From assembly GCA_028869395.1 (NCBI GenBank), contig JAGWSE010000444.1, positions 1 through 36,498 of the forward strand: a stretch of DNA of 36,498 nt. The letters are read 5' to 3'. Position 1 is the stretch's first letter. Each line of letters starts with the position of its first letter. The notes under the pieces are model-generated. The model did no database searches, was not told where the DNA came from, and saw only the letters and a program-made list of their open reading frames with translations. Of the stretch, positions 18,705 through 36,088 are shown piece by piece. The DNA comes from Alphaproteobacteria bacterium (GTDB taxonomy: Bacteria; Pseudomonadota; Alphaproteobacteria; Caulobacterales; Caulobacteraceae). Both the position numbers and the translations under genes were made by a program.

Positions 18705-19529
18705 TCAGGCGGCCTGCAGCGGCGGCTTGAAGATGCCGGCGGGCGAGAGGGTGAAGACCTCGACGCCCGCCTCGGTCACGCCCACGGAATGCTCGCACTG
18801 GGCCGAGAGCGACTTGTCCCTCGTCACGGCCGTCCAGCCGTCGGAAAGCAGCTTCACCGGGTACTTTCCCAGGTTCACCATCGGCTCGATCGTGAAGAAC
18901 ATGCCCGGGCGCAACAGCTCGCCCGTGCCGGGCTGGCCAAAGTGCAGGATGTTCGGCGCGTCGTGGAACACCCGACCCACGCCGTGACCGCAGAAGTCGC
19001 GCACCACCGAACAGCGCATGCTCTCGACGTAGGTCTGGATGGCGTGGCCGATGTCGCCGGTGCGCGCGCCCGGCTTCACCGCCGCAAGGCCCCGCTCGAG
19101 GCCTTCGTAGGTCACGTCCACCAGCCGCTTCGCCCGAGGCGCGATCTGGCCCACGCCATACATGCGGCTCGTGTCGCCATGCCAGCCGTCAACGATCACG
19201 GTGACGTCTATGTTGACGATGTCGCCCTCGCGCAGCACCCGCTCGCCGGGGATGCCATGGCAGACGATATGGTTGGGGCTGATGCAGACGGTCTTGGTGT
19301 ATCCACGGTAGCCGAGGCAGGCGGGCAGGGCGCCGTGATCGAGAATGAACTCGCGCGCCAGCCGGTCGAGATCCTCCGTCACCGCGCCCGGGACGACGTG
19401 CGGCGTCAGCATGTCGAGGCACTCGGCCCCGAGCTTTCCCGCCTTGCGCATGCCCTCGAAGTCCTCGGCGGAATGGATCTTGATCTGGCCGGTGCGATAG
19501 TCGCCGTCGAGAGCGTCTGTGGATGACAT
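18705..19529 (-). CDS. map: Type I methionine aminopeptidase
   Basis: IHSAEDFEGMRKAGKLGAECLDML, NIDVTVIVDGWHGDTSRMY, GHGVGRVFHDAPNILH, FTIEPMVNLG, CEHSVGVTEAG. Confidence 0.95.
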   Translation of the reverse strand: MSSTDALDGDYRTGQIKIHSAEDFEGMRKAGKLGAECLDMLTPHVVPGAVTEDLDRLAREFILDHGALPACLGYRGYTKTVCISPNHIVCHGIPGERVLREGDIVNIDVTVIVDGWHGDTSRMYGVGQIAPRAKRLVDVTYEGLERGLAAVKPGARTGDIGHAIQTYVESMRCSVVRDFCGHGVGRVFHDAPNILHFGQPGTGELLRPGMFFTIEPMVNLGKYPVKLLSDGWTAVTRDKSLSAQCEHSVGVTEAGVEVFTLSPAGIFKPPLQAA

Positions 19530-19619
19530 GAGATGTTCCGGCCCATCAGCGTGGGCCGCTCCTTGGATCGAGACTATGTCGCAATGCTTACGCGGAAGTT
19601 CAACGCCTGAAGGGCTTCA

Positions 19620-20333
19620 CTAGGGCTGCGGCGCATCGCGCCATGGCAGCCGGCCGCTGATCCGGACGCTGTCCGTGCTGATCGCGCACCCGTAGACCAA
19701 CACCTCGACGCCGCGGCCGGCGACCGCCGCCAGGGTCTCGGCGAACTTGCGGTCGCAGTCGGCCGCAGCGGCGAACCGGTCGCAATCCGTGCGCTGGACG
19801 ATGAACAGGAGCACCGCCCGGTCGCCCGCCTGCTTCATCGCGGCAAGCTCGTTGAGATGCCGGGTCGAGCGCGCCGCGACGCAGTCGGGAAATTCGGCGA
19901 GCGAGCCCTCCCGGCGCAGATGGACGTTCTTCACCTCGACCCAAGCGTTCGGCCGCGCATCGTCCTGCAGCAGGAAGTCGACCCGGCTGTTCTCGCCGTA
20001 GCGCACCTCGCGCCGATGCGTCCGATAACCGGCGAGCTCCGGGATCGCCCCGGCCGCAAGCGCCTCGGCCACGAGGCGATTGGGATGCATCGTGTTGAGG
20101 CCCACGAGTCCGCCGTCGGCCTCGATCAGTTCGAGCGTATGGGCGAGCTTCCGTTTCGGATCGTCCGACTTCGACAGCCAGCAGGTCAGGCCCGGCGTGT
20201 TCAGGCCCAGCATGGCGCCAGGGTTCGGACAGTGCGCCGTCAGCGCGGTCCCGTCGTCGAGCACGACGTCGGCGAAGAATCGTTTGTAACGGGCGACCAG
20301 GCGGCCGCGGACGAGCGGTTGCGGGAAGTCCAT
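19620..20333 (-). CDS. sfsA: Sugar fermentation stimulation protein SfsA
   Basis: [54 protein letters not shown]. Confidence 0.93.
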
Positions 20334-20386
20334 GAGGGGCGCTAGTCGAAGGGGGCGGTGGCTTCATCTAGGGCAGGGAACGAAGG

Positions 20387-21166
20387 ATGGCGAGCGTGGG
20401 CGTGAACGGGGCGCACGAGCGGGTCAGCGCCGCGGTGTTGATCATCGGCGACGAGATCCTTTCTGGGCGCACCCAGGACACCAACCTGCGCGACATCGCC
20501 CGCTATCTGGGGACGTTCGGCGTCGATGTGGCCGAGGCCCGCGTCGCGCCGGACATCATCGAGGAGATCGTGGCGGCCCTGAATGCGCTCCGCGCCCGCT
20601 ACGACTACGTGATCACGACCGGCGGCATCGGTCCCACCCACGACGACATCACCGCCGACGCGGTGGCGGCGGCCTTCGACACCGAGCTCTACGAGCACCC
20701 CGAGATCCTCGCGATGATGCAGGCCCGCTGGGGTGGCGAGCTTAACGCCGCGCGCCGTCGGATGGCACGCGTTCCCATTGGGGGCGAGTTGGTCAAGAAC
20801 CCGGTGCAGGGGCCGCCCGGCTTCGCCATCGGCAACGTCTTCGTGCTCGCGGGCGTGCCCCAGATCATGCGCGGCATGCTCGAGGACGTGGGGCCGAGGC
20901 TCAGGACCGGTGCGGTCACCATCTCGCGCACGGTGCGGGTCGAGGGCACGGGCGAGGGAGCTATCGCGGCGCCGCTCGAGGCGGTGGCGAAGGCCCATCC
21001 GGCCATGTCGCTGGGCAGCTATCCCTTCTTCGGTCCGGAGGGCTACGGCTCCAATCTTGTCCTGCGCGGCCGTGACGCTGCGGAAGTCGCCGCGACGATC
21101 GCCGAGCTTATCGCGGCTCTGACGGCCGCCGGGATCGCAAACGTCAGTGAGGTTTCCCCATCCTGA
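20387..21166 (+). CDS. Molybdopterin-binding domain protein (CinA N-terminal/MoaB-like)
   Basis: AAVLIIGDEILSGRTQDTNLRDIARYLG...YDYVITTGGIGPTHDDITADAVAAAF. Confidence 0.9.
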   Translation: MASVGVNGAHERVSAAVLIIGDEILSGRTQDTNLRDIARYLGTFGVDVAEARVAPDIIEEIVAALNALRARYDYVITTGGIGPTHDDITADAVAAAFDTELYEHPEILAMMQARWGGELNAARRRMARVPIGGELVKNPVQGPPGFAIGNVFVLAGVPQIMRGMLEDVGPRLRTGAVTISRTVRVEGTGEGAIAAPLEAVAKAHPAMSLGSYPFFGPEGYGSNLVLRGRDAAEVAATIAELIAALTAAGIANVSEVSPS

Positions 21167-28888: not shown

Positions 28889-29193
28889 GCGGACGTGGCG
28901 AAACCGGTAGACGCAGCAGACTTTGATTGGAGTGCCCGGGTGGAAACGCCCGGAGTAGAACCGCTCAAATTCGGGGAAAGCTCAGGCTCTGGCCGTGCCA
29001 ATCCCGAGCCAAGCCTGGCCTGGCCAGGAAGGTGTAGAGACTAGACGGGCGGCGCCTAAGCCCCGGCCTTGGGCCGGGGGAGGGCGAAGGGATAGTCCAG
29101 ACCACGAACGCCTCGGCGGCGGCGAAAGCCGAAGTGGTACGAAAATCTGTTTCCCGAAAGGGAGTGCGGGTTCGATCCCCGCCGTCCGCACCA
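28889..29193 (+). tRNA. tRNA-Leu(UAA), interrupted by a group I intron; exons 28889..28923 and 29142..29193
   Basis: Joined exons GCGGACGTGGCGAAACCGGTAGACGCAGCAGACTT + AAAATCTGTTTCCCGAAAGGGAGTGCGGGTTCGATCCCCGCCGTCCGCACCA form a 7-bp acceptor stem, D arm, anticodon stem GCAGA/UCUGU, loop CUUAAAA, long variable arm, T arm GCGGG-UUCGAUC-CCCGC and encoded CCA. Confidence 0.93.
28924..29141 (+). other. Group I intron (218 nt, tRNA-Leu/IC3-like core, no ORF), inserted between U34 and A35
   Basis: P1: exon ACUU with IGS GAGU (G.U at splice site); P2 CCGGGUG-GAAA-CGCCCGG; P/Q elements TCGGG (28971) / CCCGA (29003); R/S elements GGTGTAGAGACTAGACGG / AAGGGATAGTCC with P7 GACTA (29039) / TAGTC (29093); P8 GCCCCGGCC-TTG-GGCCGGGGG; P9 CGGC-GAAA-GCCG; terminal omega-G. 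Confidence 0.92.
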
Positions 29194-29195
29194 AT

Positions 29196-29233
29196 CCGAC
29201 GCCCAGCGCGGAACGCGCGCGCAAGGGCGTCGG
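29196..29233 (+). terminator. Inverted repeat downstream of tRNA-Leu
   Basis: CCGACGCCC ... GGGCGTCGG (9-bp arms) 3 nt after the CCA; no T-run. Confidence 0.45.
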
Positions 29234-29366
29234 TCGACGACCATGTCGACACCGCGAAGGACGTCGCGCCCGTCCGCCCCTCCACGGGCCATATGCGCAG
29301 AGAGCGGCCGGATGATCGCGGCGCGATGGAACCTCCTCCGCGATTGCGGGCTTTCTGTCCGAGAGG

Positions 29367-29792
29367 ATGGGTTGGGTGCCAGACACGAACTCTCCATCGC
29401 GCGCGCGCTTGACGGCCCGGCTGCTGCGACCGGCGCTCGCCGCGACAATGGCGCTCGCGGCGGTGGCCCTCGCCGGCTGCAATGAGCGTGCGAAGACCGA
29501 GGTCCACACAGGTGGAGACCCGGGTCGCGGCTCCCTGCTCGTCGACGAGGAGGCGTGCGGCTCCTGTCACGTGATCCCGGACAAGGCGCAGGGGAACGGT
29601 CTGGTCGGACCGCCGCTTGCAGGAATCGCCCGGCGCGCGGTGATCGCAGGCCTGCTCCCCAACACCCCCGACAACATGACGAGATGGCTGCAGTCGCCGC
29701 AGTCGGTCGTTCCCGGAAACGCCATGCCCAACATGGGTCTGACCCAACAGCAGGCGAGGGATATCACCGCCTATCTCTACACCTTGGACTAG
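29367..29792 (+). CDS. c-type cytochrome lipoprotein
   Basis: Lipobox LAGCN; CGSCHVIPDKAQGNGLVGPPLAGIARRAVIAGLLPNTPDNMTRWLQSPQSVVPGNAMPNMGLTQQQARDITAYLYTLD. Confidence 0.88.
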   Translation: MGWVPDTNSPSRARLTARLLRPALAATMALAAVALAGCNERAKTEVHTGGDPGRGSLLVDEEACGSCHVIPDKAQGNGLVGPPLAGIARRAVIAGLLPNTPDNMTRWLQSPQSVVPGNAMPNMGLTQQQARDITAYLYTLD

Positions 29793-29801
29793 GCCGGCGG
29801 C

Positions 29802-30476
29802 GTGGAAGAGCGGAACCGGACACGGCTGACGTGGTCCCTGGGCGCCCTGATCGCGGCGGGCGTGTTGGCCGGCGTGGTTGGCCTCGTCGAGGTGGCGGGG
29901 GGCTTCGACACCGCGGCCACGCACCCGTTCCCGCAGCCCGCCACCTGGCTCGTCCATCGCACGATGATCGATTCCGTGAAGTGGCGGGCGCAGTCCGTCT
30001 CCCCGCCGCCGAAATTCACCGAGCCACAGGTGATGGCCGGCTTCCGGGATTACGACGCCGACTGCGCCATGTGCCATGGCGCGCCTGGGGTCGGGCGCCA
30101 GCCCTGGGTGGCCGGCATGGATCCTCCGCCGCCTTATCTGCTGGACGCGGCGAACCGATGGCGGCCTGAGGAGCTTTATTTCATCGTCAGCGAGGGCGTG
30201 AAAATGACCGGCATGCCCGCCTGGCGGAAGGCGCTTCCGAAGGACGAGATCTGGAACATCGTGGCCTTCCTCGAAGCCATGCCCCGCACGACCGCCGCCG
30301 ATTACGCCCGGCTCCGCGCGACCTATGGGCCCGGCGCGCCCATCTTCACCCAGCCGCCGAAGGGCCCGCCCGCCTTCTCACCGGCCGGCAGCGAACTGAA
30401 TCAGGGCGCCGTCCCGGGCGTCGCGGCCCAAACGGCTCCTCCGGCGCGTTCTCGGCCCGCGCCCGGCGCGCCATGA
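29802..30476 (+). CDS. Membrane-anchored c-type cytochrome (GTG start)
   Basis: N-terminal TM (WSLGALIAAGVLAGVVGLVEVAGG), heme motif CAMCHGAPGVGRQPW, EELYFIVSEGVKMTGMPAW. Confidence 0.88.
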   Translation: MEERNRTRLTWSLGALIAAGVLAGVVGLVEVAGGFDTAATHPFPQPATWLVHRTMIDSVKWRAQSVSPPPKFTEPQVMAGFRDYDADCAMCHGAPGVGRQPWVAGMDPPPPYLLDAANRWRPEELYFIVSEGVKMTGMPAWRKALPKDEIWNIVAFLEAMPRTTAADYARLRATYGPGAPIFTQPPKGPPAFSPAGSELNQGAVPGVAAQTAPPARSRPAPGAP

Positions 30477-31309
30477 GCTTCGCCTCCGCAGACGAGGCCG
30501 CCTCGAGGTCCGCGGGGAGTCGCCTGCCCGCCGAAGCGTTGGGCGCGACGCGGATCACCCGGACGGCCCGGCAAGTTAGTCAGAGACTTGTACCGGAGGA
30601 GCGGCCCATAGCCCTGGTGCACGACGGTTCCACCACCGCGGTGATGATGGCCACTCCCGCCGACCTCGAGGACTTCGCCCTGGGGTTCAGCCTGACCGAA
30701 GGGCTGATCGAGGATGCCGCCGAGATCGAGAGTCTCGAGATCGCCGAGAGCGACGACGGAATCGAAGTCCGCATGTGGCTGAGCTCGGCCCGCGGCCGGG
30801 CCCTCGCCCAGAGGCGGCGGCGCCTCGCTGGACCAACGGGCTGCGGCCTCTGCGGCATCGAGAGCCTGCACGAGGCGGTTCGCCCGCCGCGGCGCGTGGG
30901 CGAAGGTTTCGTCATCACGGCCGAGGCGATCCATGAGGGGCTGGAGGCGATGACCCGGGCCCAGGAGCTCGGCTCGGCCACTCGCGCCATGCACGCCGCG
31001 GCGTGGTGGTCGACGCAAGAAGGCCTCGTCGCCGTTCGCGAGGACGTGGGCCGCCACAATGCGCTCGACAAGCTTGCGGGCGCGCTCGCGCGAGGTCATG
31101 GCGAGCCGGAAGGCGCGGTTCTTTTGACCAGCCGGCTGTCCGTCGAAATGATCCAGAAGGCGGCGGCCATGTGCGCGCAGGTGGTGGTCGCCGTCTCGGC
31201 TCCCACGTCGCTGGCCGTGAGCACGGCTGAGACGGCCGGCATGACGCTGATCGCCGTGGCGCGAGCCGACAGCTTCGAGGTCTTCACGCGCCCCGATCGC
31301 GTCCGCTGA
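30473..31309 (+). CDS. fdhD: Formate dehydrogenase accessory sulfurtransferase FdhD
   Basis: ERPIALVHDGSTTAVMMATPADLEDFALGFSLTEGLI, CGLCG, EDVGRHNALDKLAGAL; start overlaps the preceding cytochrome stop (ATGA). Confidence 0.93.
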   Translation: MSFASADEAASRSAGSRLPAEALGATRITRTARQVSQRLVPEERPIALVHDGSTTAVMMATPADLEDFALGFSLTEGLIEDAAEIESLEIAESDDGIEVRMWLSSARGRALAQRRRRLAGPTGCGLCGIESLHEAVRPPRRVGEGFVITAEAIHEGLEAMTRAQELGSATRAMHAAAWWSTQEGLVAVREDVGRHNALDKLAGALARGHGEPEGAVLLTSRLSVEMIQKAAAMCAQVVVAVSAPTSLAVSTAETAGMTLIAVARADSFEVFTRPDRVR

Positions 31310-31628
31310 CTTCGTCGGCGCCGGAGGCGTCCAACAGCTTCTGGAGCCATCCGCGCGCGCCTTCCAGCTCCGGCCACGGCGCGGGACCAAGGGGAAAGTG
31401 CACGGCGGTGATCGCGCTGATCACGGCGTTGGCGTGCTCCAGGTTGCGCCGCTCCTCATCGCCGTCGCCGCTCGCGGCGGCGATCAGCTCGTCGCGGAAT
31501 TCGCACGCGAATTTGGTGGCCTCGGTCAGCGCGTGACCGTCTCGCTGCGGTTTCGCCGCCAACGCCTTGTCGATGCAAGCCAACGCCTGCCGACCGGGAT
31601 CTTCCCGCGGGCCCTGGGTTGGACTCAT
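31284..31628 (-). CDS. Small unknown protein translationally coupled to FDH alpha subunit
   Basis: MSPTQGPREDPGRQALACIDKALAAKPQRDGHALTEATKFACEFRDELIAAASG...HFPLGPAPWPELEGARGWLQKLLDASGA; ATG at 31628 overlaps the alpha stop codon (31627..31625). Confidence 0.75.
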   Translation of the reverse strand: MSPTQGPREDPGRQALACIDKALAAKPQRDGHALTEATKFACEFRDELIAAASGDGDEERRNLEHANAVISAITAVHFPLGPAPWPELEGARGWLQKLLDASGADEVSGRDRGA

Positions 31629-34600
31629 TCCGCCGCCTTCCGAATTCCGCGACGACCCGGGCGGATATTGCAGGTGACCGCCTTGGTGCTGTGGATGCTC
31701 GTGTTGGGATCGCCGGTGATCGCCAGCAGAACATTCGCCGGTTCGCCCGTGGCGTAGCCCAGTGGGCCATATACCCACGGCATGCCGACCTGGTGCACCT
31801 TGCGGCCGTTGATCGTGAACGGCCGCATCCGCTCGGTCACCATGGCTCGCACCTCGATCTCGCCGCGCGGGCTGGAGAGCACGGTCCAGCCGAGGTGCTC
31901 GATTCCGAGTTCGGCAGCCAGCTCCGGGGAGATTTCGACGAAGGCTTCCGGCTGCAGTTCGGCCGTGTGCGGCGTGATGCGGCTCGGGATGCCGCCGCAG
32001 TGGATTTCGGTCAGCCGGAAAGTCGTGAACACATAAGGGTACCGTGGGTCGCCGGTTTCGGCCAACTCGTTGCCGGGCCTGGGCCAGATCTTGGCCGCCG
32101 GATTCATCTGGTGCTTCTCGTAGAGCTCATTGCGAACCGGGCTCTCGACCGGCTCGTAATGGGTGGGGAGCGGACCATCCTTGATGCCTGAGGCGGCGAA
32201 GATCATCGCCTTTCCGTCGGGCTCCATGATGAACGGCGAGTCCCCGGCGATGGCGTCCATGCCGTGAGGCGTCTTGGACCAGTCCGGCCGGAACTCGGGC
32301 GCCTTGTCCTTGTCGAAGTCCGGCGTGTCATAGCCAGTCCACGCCTTCTTCTCAGCGTCCCACCAGATCATCTTCTTCCGCTCGGACCAGGGCTTTCCGT
32401 CCGGGTCTGCCGAGGCGCGGTTGTAGAGGGTGCGGCGGTTCGACGGCCAGGCGAACGCCCAACCGCTATGGCTGGTGTTATCGCCCGGCTTATCGGGCCG
32501 GCGCGATCGGGCGAGGTTCTTGCCTTCTTCGGGGAAAACCCCCGAGTAGATCCAGCAGCCGCAGGCCGTGGAACCATCGTCCTCCAGGGCCTTGAAATCC
32601 GCGACCTGCTTGCGGTCGGCCGTCGTGTAGCCGTTGATCTCCTTGAGGATCGCCTCGGCGCTCGGTTCTTCACGCTCGCCCTTCACCGGATAGTCCCACG
32701 CCAACGCCTGGATCGGCCGGTCGCGTTCAAGCGTGCTGTCGGCATAGAGCGCCTTCAGGCGCTTTCCGAGATGGAAGATGAACCATGTGTCCGAGCGGCT
32801 GTCGCCCGGCGCCTCGAGCACATGGTCGTGCCACTGCACGAGCCGGCTCGTGTTGGTGACCGTGCCTTCCTTCTCGCCGGGCATGGCCGCGGGCAGGAAG
32901 AAGATCTCCGTCTCGATGTCCTCGGGCCGTGTCTCGCCGTTGCGCACGCGCCGACCGTTGCGCCAGAACTCGGCGGTCTCGGTCATCGCAAAATCGCGCA
33001 CGACCAGCCACTCGAGCTTCGCCATGCCGAGCTCCACGAGCTCGGTGTTGACGGCGCCCACCATCGGGTTCTGGCCCAGCATGAACTGGCCCTTGATCAC
33101 CCCATTGGCCATGGCGAGCGTCATCGGCTCCTGACTGACGTCGCCGGTCAGCTTCGGGACCATCTGGTAGGCCCAGTCGTTGTCGGCGGCGGCGGCCTCG
33201 CCGTACCAGGCCTTCAAGAGGCTGATCGCGTATTTGGGGAAATTCGCCCACCACCCGGTCGCCGCCGTCTCGGTCTTCAGATAGCTCTTCAGGTCGGCGT
33301 GGTCTTCGTGCAGGACCGGCTGCGCCAGATAGCCGGGCAGCATGTTGTAGAGCGTCGGGATATCGGTCGAGCCTTGGATGCTCACGTGACCGCGCAGCGC
33401 CAGCACGCCGCCGCCCGGTCGGCCCACGTTGCCCAGCAAAAGTTGGACGATCGTCGCGGCCCGGATGATCTGCACGCCAACAGAATGGTGCGTCCAGCCC
33501 ACCGCGTAGCAGAAGCAGCCGGTGCGATCGCGACCGGAATTCTTCGCGAGCGTGTCGGCGATCTGCAGGAAGGTTTCCTGCGGACAGCCCGTCGTCGCCT
33601 CCACCATCTCGGGCGTGTAGCGGGCGTAGTGTCGTTTCAGGATCTGGTAGACGCACCTGGGGTGCTGCAGCGTCGGATCGCGCGGCGGCGGGCTCTGCGC
33701 CATGCTCTCGTAGTCGGTGTCGGCGCCGGCCGGATGGCGGTTGGCCAGCGGCGTGGGAGTGGTTTTGCCCTCGTACTGCCAGGTGTCCTGCTTGTAGCTC
33801 TTGGCGTCCGGGTCGTAACCGGAGAAGACGCCGTCGGCATCTTCGGTGTCGAGGTATCGCTCGTCGATGATGTGGTCGAGGTTGGTGTAGGCCAGCGCGT
33901 AGTCGCGGAACCAGAGGTCGTTCTCCAGGATGTGCCGGATCAGGCCGCCCAGGAACGCGATATCGGTGCCGGAGCGGATCGGCGCATGAATGTCGGCGAT
34001 GGCCGAGGTGCGCGTGAACCTTGGGTCAACATGGATGATCTTCCCGCCGCGCCGCTGCGCTTCGACCACGAAACGGAACGCCACGGGGTGGTTCTCCGCC
34101 ATGTTGGAGCCCATGACGACGACATAGTCTGCGTTCGGAAGGTCCCACAGGGCCATCGTCGCCGCGCCGCGTCCGAAGGAGGCGCCCAAACTGGGCACCG
34201 ATGAGGAGTGTCAAATTCGAGCCTGGTTCTCGATGCTCACCATCCCCAGGCCGCCTCCGAACAACTTCTTGATGAGGTAGTTCTCCTCGTTGTCCATCGT
34301 CGCCCCGCCCAACGAGGCGAGACCCAGGGTGTGATTGACGGTGCGACCGTCAGGCATCCGGCTGACGAAGGTCTGGTCGCGCGTCTTCTTGGTCAGCTGG
34401 GCGATGCGGTCCATCGCCCAGTCGAGCGGCTTCTCCTCCCACTCGGTGGCGCGGGGTGCGCGATAGAGCACCTTGTTGATCCGCTTGGGCGACAACAGGG
34501 TGCCCAGGGTTCCGGCTCCCTTTGGGCATAGGGTGCCCTGGTTGACGGGGCTGCGCGGGTCGCCCTCGATGTGAATCGGCTTCTTGTCCTTGGCGTAGAT

Positions 34601-34804
34601 CAGCTGCGAGCAGCCGACGGCGCAGAACGGACAGACGCTCGTGCCGACGGTGTCCGCCTCCTCCAGGCGAGGGCGCCAGGTCTTCGAGTGCGTGCTCTTC
34701 GCGGCCTCGCCATAGACGTCGCCCCCGGACAGCTGCCTGGGCAAGGTCCAGTCCTCGACAAACTTGTTCAGTCGCTCGCCAACGGACTCGCGCAGCTTCT
34801 TCAT
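31625..34804 (-). CDS. fdoG: Formate dehydrogenase major (alpha) subunit, selenocysteine-containing: one reading frame across in-frame UGA at 34213..34211
   Basis: The upstream ORF ends ...GMVSIENQARI, then TGA, and the same frame continues HSSSVPSLGASFGRGAATMALWDLPNADYVVVMGSNMAENHPVAFRF. The NQAR(V/I)-U-H context matches the Sec site of FdnG/FdoG enzymes. 4Fe4S motif CPFCAVGCSQL..C. Joined product about 1059 aa. Confidence 0.92.
34181..34213 (-). promoter_or_regulatory. Bacterial SECIS-like element (UGA plus downstream hairpin)
   Basis: RNA UGA-CACUCCUCAUC-GGUGCCC-AGUUU-GGGCGCC: 7-bp stem starting 11 nt after the UGA with a G/U-containing apical loop. Confidence 0.72.
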
Positions 34805-34946
34805 GGGGACCCCCGCGGAGTTTCGCGCCTGCCCCAATAAGATCGTACCCGCGGCGGCGGTTCCGGCTCGGCGACGAAAACATCGCGGGGCGACGAAACC
34901 CGCCCGGGTGTGAACGGTTATGGTCCCGAGTGTGGCGGAGGCGTCT

Positions 34947-35183
34947 ATGCCCCAGATGGCGGGAACGGTGGTGGTCGTCCAGGAAGGGCGGCTGCAGCTC
35001 CTGGACGACAGCGGGGCCGGCCATGTGTTCATCCTGAGCCATGCCTGCGCGGCCGAACCGCAGCAACTCTATGGGCTCGAGCTCGGGCGCACCCGCCTGC
35101 GGATCGACTATTCCGAGCCGACCAACGTCATCGGCTTCCTGGCCGAGAAAATCGAAGTGCTGAACGAGGAGACCGTGAGATGA
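34947..35183 (+). CDS. Small unknown protein translationally coupled to FDH beta subunit
   Basis: MPQMAGTVVVVQEGRLQLLDDSGAGHVFILSHACAAEPQQLYGLELGRTRLRIDYSEPTNVIGFLAEKIEVLNEETVR; GGAGG upstream of ATG 34947; stop overlaps the beta start (ATGA). Confidence 0.7.
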   Translation: MPQMAGTVVVVQEGRLQLLDDSGAGHVFILSHACAAEPQQLYGLELGRTRLRIDYSEPTNVIGFLAEKIEVLNEETVR

Positions 35184-36088
35184 CCGTGCCCGCGCGCGCG
35201 CAGGACTTTACGGACTCCATCCTCGAAGCGCCGATCCCCGACGAATCCGAGCTGACCGCCGGGGTCAGGATCGAGCCGGGGAAGTCCTACGGGTTTTTCA
35301 CCGACACCACCGTCTGCATCGGTTGCAAGGCCTGCGAGGTCGCCTGCAAGGAATGGAACAACTTGCCGGCGGACGACGTGGGGCTGACCGGCGATTCCTA
35401 CGACAACACCGGCGCGCTCTCGGCCAATACATGGCGCCACGTGAACTTCGTGGAGCGCTCAGGCGAAAACGGCGTACGCGAGAACAGCCAGACGCCGTTC
35501 CAGAGCGGCTGGCTGATGATGAGCGACGTCTGCAAGCACTGCCACAATGCGCCGTGTCTCGAGGCTTGTCCGACCGGCGCTATCTTCAAGACCGAGTTCG
35601 ACACCGTCGTCGTGCAGCAGGACGTCTGCAACGGCTGCGGCTACTGCGTGCCGGCCTGCCCGTTCGGGGTGGTCGACATCAGTCTGCTGGACGGCAAGGC
35701 GCACAAGTGCACGCTTTGCTACGATCGCCTGAAGGGCGGGCTCGAGCCTGCGTGCGCGAAGGCCTGCCCGACGAATTCCATCCAGTTCGGCGAGATGGAC
35801 GACCTGGTCGAGCGCGCCCACAAGCGCGTCGACGAACTCCATGAGCGTGGCGTTGAGGGCGCGCGGCTCTACGGCGCCCCGGGCGAACCCGGCGCCACCG
35901 GCGACCTCGTCCACCTCAACGCCTTCTTCCTGCTGACCGACCGACCCGAGGTCTACAACCTGCCGCCCGCGCCCACCCGGCCGTCGAACCGCGTGGCGCC
36001 GTCGCTGACGGCGGGCCTCCTCAGCATGGCCGGGTTCGCGCTGCTGGCCGTCGCCGCCTTCGCGGCGCGTCGCGGGAGTGAAGCATGA
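35180..36088 (+). CDS. fdoH: Formate dehydrogenase iron-sulfur (beta) subunit with C-terminal TM helix
   Basis: CIGCKACEVACKEWN, CKHCHNAPCLEACPTGAIFKT, CNGCGYCVPACPFGVV, CTLCYDR...CAKACPT; C-terminal LTAGLLSMAGFALLAVAAFAARRG. Confidence 0.93.
   Translation: MTVPARAQDFTDSILEAPIPDESELTAGVRIEPGKSYGFFTDTTVCIGCKACEVACKEWNNLPADDVGLTGDSYDNTGALSANTWRHVNFVERSGENGVRENSQTPFQSGWLMMSDVCKHCHNAPCLEACPTGAIFKTEFDTVVVQQDVCNGCGYCVPACPFGVVDISLLDGKAHKCTLCYDRLKGGLEPACAKACPTNSIQFGEMDDLVERAHKRVDELHERGVEGARLYGAPGEPGATGDLVHLNAFFLLTDRPEVYNLPPAPTRPSNRVAPSLTAGLLSMAGFALLAVAAFAARRGSEA

Follow-up and report, generated by a model that had tools for sequence, protein, structure and literature searches.

Why group I introns occupy the anticodons of bacterial tRNA genes, and how those lacking an open reading frame (ORF) spread, are questions that have stood for decades, and they are raised again by a split tRNA-Leu(UAA) gene in an alphaproteobacterial genome (family Caulobacteraceae; contig JAGWSE010000444.1 of assembly GCA_028869395.1). 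The whole stretch analyzed, referred to here as the window, is 36,498 nucleotides (nt) long, and the gene lies on its forward strand at positions 28889–29193. The answer we propose is that the carriers of such introns are integrative elements that break a tRNA gene of their host and supply a replacement (a rescue tRNA gene), and that the benefit of the intron is to hide the integrase site in the DNA while being gone from the RNA. Taken as a whole, i.e., a rescue tRNA of integrative elements, a core split by the intron, and a window copy that has since been domesticated, we regard this account as reasonably probable.

Direct reading of the sequence places a 218-nt insert (28924–29141) between U34 and A35 of the tRNA, flanked by a 35-nt 5′ exon ending at U34 (28889–28923) and a 52-nt 3′ exon that starts at A35 and encodes the CCA (29142–29193). 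The joined exons give an 87-nt class II tRNA, called as tRNA-Leu(taa) by ARAGORN, and the exon boundary agrees with an alignment of 67 related genes; the tRNA identity, encoded CCA, and insertion point proposed by a first-pass annotation of the same DNA, made from the sequence alone, are thereby upheld. With introns allowed, ARAGORN detected the split gene with the splice site off by one base and named it Phe(gaa); without introns, it reported nothing in the window. A scan of the window with Rfam at the gathering score (50) likewise returned no match, the intron scoring below that value. Both blanks are sensitivity limits, and together they mean that routine annotation overlooks the tRNA-Leu(UAA) of the window. 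Split genes of this type explain why some tRNA genes are overlooked or misnamed by ordinary annotation.

The feature is almost certainly a tRNA gene with a group I intron. The Rfam check suggested in the first-pass annotation gave a match to RF00028 (Intron_gpI) of 43.9 bits (E 7e-10) which covers the whole model (1–253), though it falls short of the gathering score; it is the sole match to this model in the host assembly, and related introns reach 67.5 bits. With helices named according to the group I plan, P1 is formed by the exon strand ACUU (28920–28923), with its U.G pair at the 5′ splice site, and the internal guide sequence GAGU (28930–28933), and is invariant in 35 sequences. P3 pairs CCGCUC (28961–28966) with GGGCGG (29047–29052), P7 pairs GACUA (29039–29043) with UAGUC (29093–29097), P2 and P9 bear GAAA caps, and the intron closes with the terminal G present in every aligned tRNA-Leu(UAA) intron. 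In an alignment of 35 relatives, the structure comprising P1, P2, P3, the P4-P5 stem, P6, P7, P8, and P9 has 98.1% standard pair cells (versus 88.2% in shuffled alignments), 23 pairs have changed on both sides (a number reached by none of 500 shuffles), and pairing falls to 28–47% when partners are slid by one to three columns. The pseudoknotted core helices P3 and P7 contribute one compensatory change each, UA/CG in P3 and AU to GC in P7 of one relative (L235). The 35 relatives support every helix, and with them the group I architecture given in the first-pass annotation; the intron has no ORF and, as that annotation also noted, no homing-endonuclease gene.

The host assembly is a bin of 3.17 Mb in 476 contigs (90% complete). 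No second, intronless tRNA-Leu(UAA), which the first-pass annotation had raised as a sign that the split copy might be a pseudogene, was found in this bin, and complete relatives such as G037, G022, G017, and G057 contain no other tRNA-Leu(UAA). Because many complete related genomes have the intron gene as their sole intact tRNA-Leu(UAA), splicing in vivo is very likely, and from its sequence the window copy is very likely a working gene whose intron would remove itself from the precursor.

The link to integrative elements comes from the neighborhoods of related genes. A survey of the order Caulobacterales gave group I intron matches in 15 of 200 genomes, all in tRNA-Leu(UAA) and at the identical position; seven of these 15 genes lie beside, or a few kb from, a member of one integrase family, and an eighth retains a broken native half. 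At two loci (G104 and G049), an intronless tRNA-Leu(UAA) 5′ half, broken in the anticodon loop, is followed by a gene of ~400 codons and then by a complete intron-bearing tRNA-Leu(UAA), the intervening gene encoding a tyrosine recombinase, as judged by its SAM-like and Phage_integrase domains in Pfam. Both ends were mapped in four elements, G104 (21.5 kb), G049 (14.1 kb), G186 (25.1 kb), and G611 (7.3 kb), where the acceptor stems of the native 5′ and 3′ halves match each other and where the attachment (att) junctions, attL and attR, share the common core GACTTAAAA(TC). Rejoining the flanks of G104, G049, and G186 restores an intact tRNA-Leu(UAA) fold, the attL junction of G104 has no tRNA fold, and no other intact copy of tRNA-Leu(UAA) was found in the element-bearing genomes.

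The cargo of the G104 element includes a MobA/VirD2-type relaxase, MobC/NikA, a type IV coupling protein, and HipA, and that of the G049 element includes AbiEi/AbiEii and a ThiF-domain protein; both look like mobilizable integrative elements. A phage nature was considered and rejected, with no integrase match in 50,697 phage records and four weak or partial viral contigs, none of which carried an intron tRNA. Plasmid records yielded 24 integrase matches, most of them partial. At the attL sites of three loci (L081, position 7834 on the minus strand; L188; and L200), the native 5′ half runs into a tRNA-like 3′ half that belongs to the element and terminates in CCA, the fused sequences being chimeric, tRNA-like, and poorly paired.

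A scan of named genomes widened this picture, with the best 80 of 546 integrase relatives sorted by the tRNA that is broken or rebuilt beside each. They come from Alphaproteobacteria and Acidobacteriota, apart from a few bins that bear other labels. More than half (43/80) target tRNA-Leu(UAA), of which 40 accompany an intron-bearing tRNA-Leu(UAA), two an intronless one, and one could be assigned to the UAA type only. The 40 intron-bearing rescue genes comprise 34 directly 3′ of the integrase, three clipped at a contig end with the exon and intron start visible, and three in Rhizobiales that lie 2–5 kb further along on the opposite strand; 37 of the 80 integrases are at most ~0.7 kb 5′ of an intron tRNA. 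Integrases targeting tRNA-Leu(CAA) are accompanied by an intronless rescue gene (17), an intron-bearing one (1), or none that could be found (5). The remainder have as targets tRNA-Leu(UAG) (1), a Phe, Met, Arg, or Asn tRNA rebuilt intact at the junction (11), and one Thr and one Arg(CCU) tRNA, the last two assigned by eye.

Comparison of 29 rescue/native pairs showed the acceptor stem GCGGGCG in 21 of the rescue genes, versus 21 different acceptor stems among the broken natives, and rescue genes resemble one another (0.915) more closely than the host gene that each replaces (0.855). Since the acceptor is common among rescue genes and diverse among natives, the rescue tRNA travels with the element. 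We are confident that the intron-bearing tRNA-Leu(UAA) is carried as a rescue gene by the element family of this integrase. In the acidobacterial integrases L194, L206, L208, L209, and L211, which group as a single clade of the family, tRNA-Leu(CAA) is broken, no rescue tRNA was found within reach, and the integrase is followed by a conserved inverted-repeat stretch (GGATGGAACCATCC / GGCCGGAACCGGCC). Also seen were family members targeting tRNA-Arg(CCU), the second alphaproteobacterial tRNA in which group I introns are known (G040, L124:8336, and L160:1–30, the latter two inserted in the anticodon loop); no intron-bearing tRNA-Arg was found on any of the three.

In the mechanism we envisage, the tyrosine integrase would recombine attP of the element with the anticodon-loop core GACTTAAAA of an intronless host tRNA-Leu(UAA). 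Because only ~9–11 bp would be common to the two, the host gene would be cut into two useless halves, and the intron-bearing tRNA-Leu(UAA) of the element, situated just 3′ of the integrase gene, would replace it. At the DNA level, an intron within the core (ACTT^AAAA) would leave the rescue gene no target for its own or a related integrase, and at the RNA level the intron would be removed from the rescue tRNA. Later loss of the integrase and broken halves would leave the intron tRNA as the only copy of the host; if the window copy is such a domesticated gene, its host would lack an attB site.

That the intron shields the rescue gene in this manner is, to our reading of the sequences, somewhat likely. 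The core used by the integrase coincides with the anticodon loop of the target tRNA, and the joined exons of 28 of 29 intron-bearing rescue genes contain the core GGACTTAAAATCC, i.e., a target perfect in both loop and closing stem, split by the intron; from this splitting of the core, we infer protection. The two intronless UAA rescue genes (L152 and L169) have an altered core (CACTTAAAATG). Among the 16 intronless CAA rescue genes, 13 depart from the target that their own element has broken, either at loop base 32 or in the closing stem pairs. One CAA-targeting element has an intron in its tRNA-Leu(CAA) between U33 and C34 (L193:7463–7783; Rfam 51.1 bits), with a guide altered to pair with GACU and the exon core intact. 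Over the integrase tree, the target changes many times, and among independent pairs taken from its supported branches the intron follows the target in seven of eight and does the opposite in none (sign test p 0.016). Read most simply, these patterns mean that a rescue gene has to escape the neighboring integrase and can do so in either of two ways, by an intron placed in the core or by an altered core. The elements offer dozens of natural test cases, including the intronless rescue genes with changed cores.

Several points weigh against a protective role. Three of the 16 intronless CAA rescue genes retain a nearly unchanged core without an intron, P1 pairing also constrains the exon core, the tRNA-plus-intron module may be inherited as a unit, and a conserved intron could merely be hitchhiking. 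On this last alternative, an old host intron in tRNA-Leu(UAA) was captured once with its gene by an element and has since been carried without protecting anything. One intron family at one position would indeed explain most loci, stand-alone intron genes are common and interspersed with element-borne ones, and conservation of the exon core is expected from P1 pairing alone. However, host tRNA-Leu(UAA) genes are mostly intronless, and yet the intron has been kept in 40 of 42 typed UAA rescue genes, across wide integrase divergence and repeated target switches. Passive carriage also fits poorly with the altered cores of the intronless rescue genes and with the L193 intron, placed at a different position together with a matching guide. 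We consider hitchhiking possible, and a good deal less probable than not.

Whether the window copy itself came from an element is a separate matter. Of the 15 intron genes found in the order, seven, the window copy included, are without trace of an element, and we class the window copy as a stand-alone relative and not as an element. Intermediates in decay occur in sister genomes: G020 lacks the integrase, with its native half lying 190 bp before the intron gene, G634 has the native half directly upstream, and G621 has a frameshifted C-terminal integrase fragment directly upstream. In a survey of the family, group I intron matches were obtained in 48 of 250 genomes (all 25 loci fetched being tRNA-Leu(UAA)), and no intronless 5′ half was seen in 31 of these 48, versus 12 of the 202 intron-free genomes. 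Most of the remaining 17 intron genomes have the 5′ half 1.5–26 kb upstream of the intron gene, as attL.

The position of the window copy also bears on its origin. It lies 7.7 kb downstream of a cluster (18705–21166) of map (M24 peptidase, minus strand), sfsA (minus strand), and a MoCF/CinA-like gene (plus strand), identified by Pfam and by synteny with G037, G057, G017, G049, G020, and G167. Related genomes have the native tRNA-Leu(UAA), or the attL half of it, beside this cluster. In this same neighborhood, the broken native gene is found in G049 and G020 and an intron gene in G017, G037, and G057, as well as in G327, judged by its sfsA neighbor. The intron nearest to that of the window is element-borne (G186, 90.8% identity), and on the intron tree stand-alone and element-borne copies are intermixed, with at least five forced changes, although with many weak forks and four long branches the tree makes the mixing visible and not the direction of transfer. 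Being a stand-alone gene near the ancestral tRNA locus, in a lineage with decayed intermediates, the window copy is probably a domesticated rescue gene; we consider descent from an element likely.

Other observations run counter to an element origin. The window copy has no integrase or tRNA half above the shuffled background within 12 kb upstream or 7.3 kb downstream, and the integrase was found nowhere in the host bin, which is 90% complete and in 476 contigs. More broadly, in the class as a whole the majority of intron tRNA-Leu genes lack such an integrase alongside and, given how many lack one, the intron genes may be older than the elements. The corresponding alternative is that the window copy has descended vertically as a stand-alone intron gene and was never in an element, the elements having acquired theirs from such genes. 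Its synteny with the native locus and the lack of nearby element traces agree with this, as do its exons (CAGCAGACTT/AAAATCTG), which match the stand-alone genes of G037, G266, and G280 and not the usual element type. Against it stand the patchy presence of the intron within one genus and within the family, the element-borne nearest relative, the mixing on the tree, and the decayed intermediates, and we view strictly vertical descent as rather unlikely. Among the proteins beside stand-alone introns (n = 20), only a transposase-type rve domain (L233) and an unrelated phage-type integrase (L218) were noted, the latter following an intron-bearing tRNA-Arg(CCU) gene, the intron being of group I (L218:1869–3170).

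The element-borne rescue account can be extended to bacteria more generally, such that group I introns in tRNA anticodon loops would be att-site shields, spread by elements and not by homing endonucleases, with stand-alone genes domesticated and their hosts immune; to this generalization we assign even chances. At the level of the class, 31 of 395 genomes gave a group I intron match, mostly in tRNA-Leu(UAA), with some in tRNA-Arg(CCU) and several in tRNA-Lys-like genes.

Reinhold-Hurek and Shub reportedly described, in 1992, group I introns in alphaproteobacterial tRNA-Arg(CCU) and betaproteobacterial tRNA-Ile(CAU). The introns reported here share with those the group I type, the anticodon loop, and an occurrence in Proteobacteria, but differ in residing in other tRNAs and in their link to rescue genes. 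Homing and reverse splicing, and not element-borne rescue tRNAs, are the routes of spread given in a review of group I introns in bacteria (PMC3984707). The closest precedent for the rescue itself is tRNA-dependent lysogeny, shown in mycobacteriophages and other actinobacteriophages, where a host tRNA is broken and a replacement supplied (Guerrero-Bustamante and Hatfull 2024, PMC10865867), as in phage Gaia, with a tRNA-Leu-CAA downstream of its integrase (PMC10865867). The elements here are alike in having a short common core, a host tRNA that is broken and not rebuilt, and a tyrosine integrase beside the rescue tRNA. Unlike the phages in that work, they occur in Alphaproteobacteria and Acidobacteriota, appear mobilizable and not phage-like in the two cases inspected, and have a rescue tRNA with a group I intron splitting the core, intron-bearing rescue tRNAs not being described there (PMC10865867).

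In Archaea, an intron in a tRNA gene has been proposed to protect an attachment site (Randau and Soell, as cited in PMC3293823). The archaeal case of Sugahara et al. (2012, PMC3293823) resembles ours in the proposal that a tRNA intron would abolish the att site and may come with a mobile element, and in an integrase-like arrangement adjoining a tRNA half; the archaeal introns, however, are short and protein-spliced, and the case concerned one tRNA-Thr locus, whereas here a ribozyme intron occurs on dozens of elements and att sites were mapped. In the open-access literature, we found neither tRNA-Leu(UAA) introns described as part of integrative elements nor replacement tRNAs described as carrying group I introns. 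That a replacement tRNA can accompany integration is already known, and the group I intron in that role appears to be new. Such integration is here extended beyond mycobacteriophages, to elements found in Alphaproteobacteria and Acidobacteriota.

The cyanobacterial trnL(UAA) intron, as represented by the 1997 work cited in PMC4033280, is similar in its tRNA, its interruption of the anticodon, and its small, ORF-less group I form, a likeness by description, and unlike the present introns, which are GC-rich, occur in other phyla, and are carried on integrative elements. A recent transfer from cyanobacteria or plastids would account for the same tRNA and the same anticodon position given in the literature, but introns 85–91% identical to that of the window are widespread in Alphaproteobacteria and Acidobacteriota, which makes such a transfer very improbable. 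Least credible of all is a pseudogene with a dead intron, for which the Rfam score below the gathering cut-off might speak but which the intact exons and core, strong covariation, and lack of another tRNA-Leu(UAA) in the bin or the complete relatives render negligible.

A few further observations were made in the surveys and in the window. Group I intron matches in four loci of the class survey (L221, L227, L229, and L242) lie in tRNA-Lys-like genes whose anticodon (CUU or UUU) is interrupted by the intron, labelled as Arg, SeC, or Lys by ARAGORN; we know of no described case of a tRNA-Lys group I intron in Alphaproteobacteria. Introns in tRNA-Leu(CAA) numbered two over all surveys, that of L193 and one in L228 (1392–1752, minus strand), the latter a group I intron between U33 and C34. 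The minus-strand ORF at 28965–30077, mechanically listed, overlaps cytochrome c and the tRNA on the opposite strand and is most likely not a gene, in agreement with its earlier designation as a false coding sequence. Finally, the window contains a formate dehydrogenase region of selenium or molybdenum type, with large subunit ORFs and an iron-sulphur protein at 31625–36088 and fdhD at 30473–31309.
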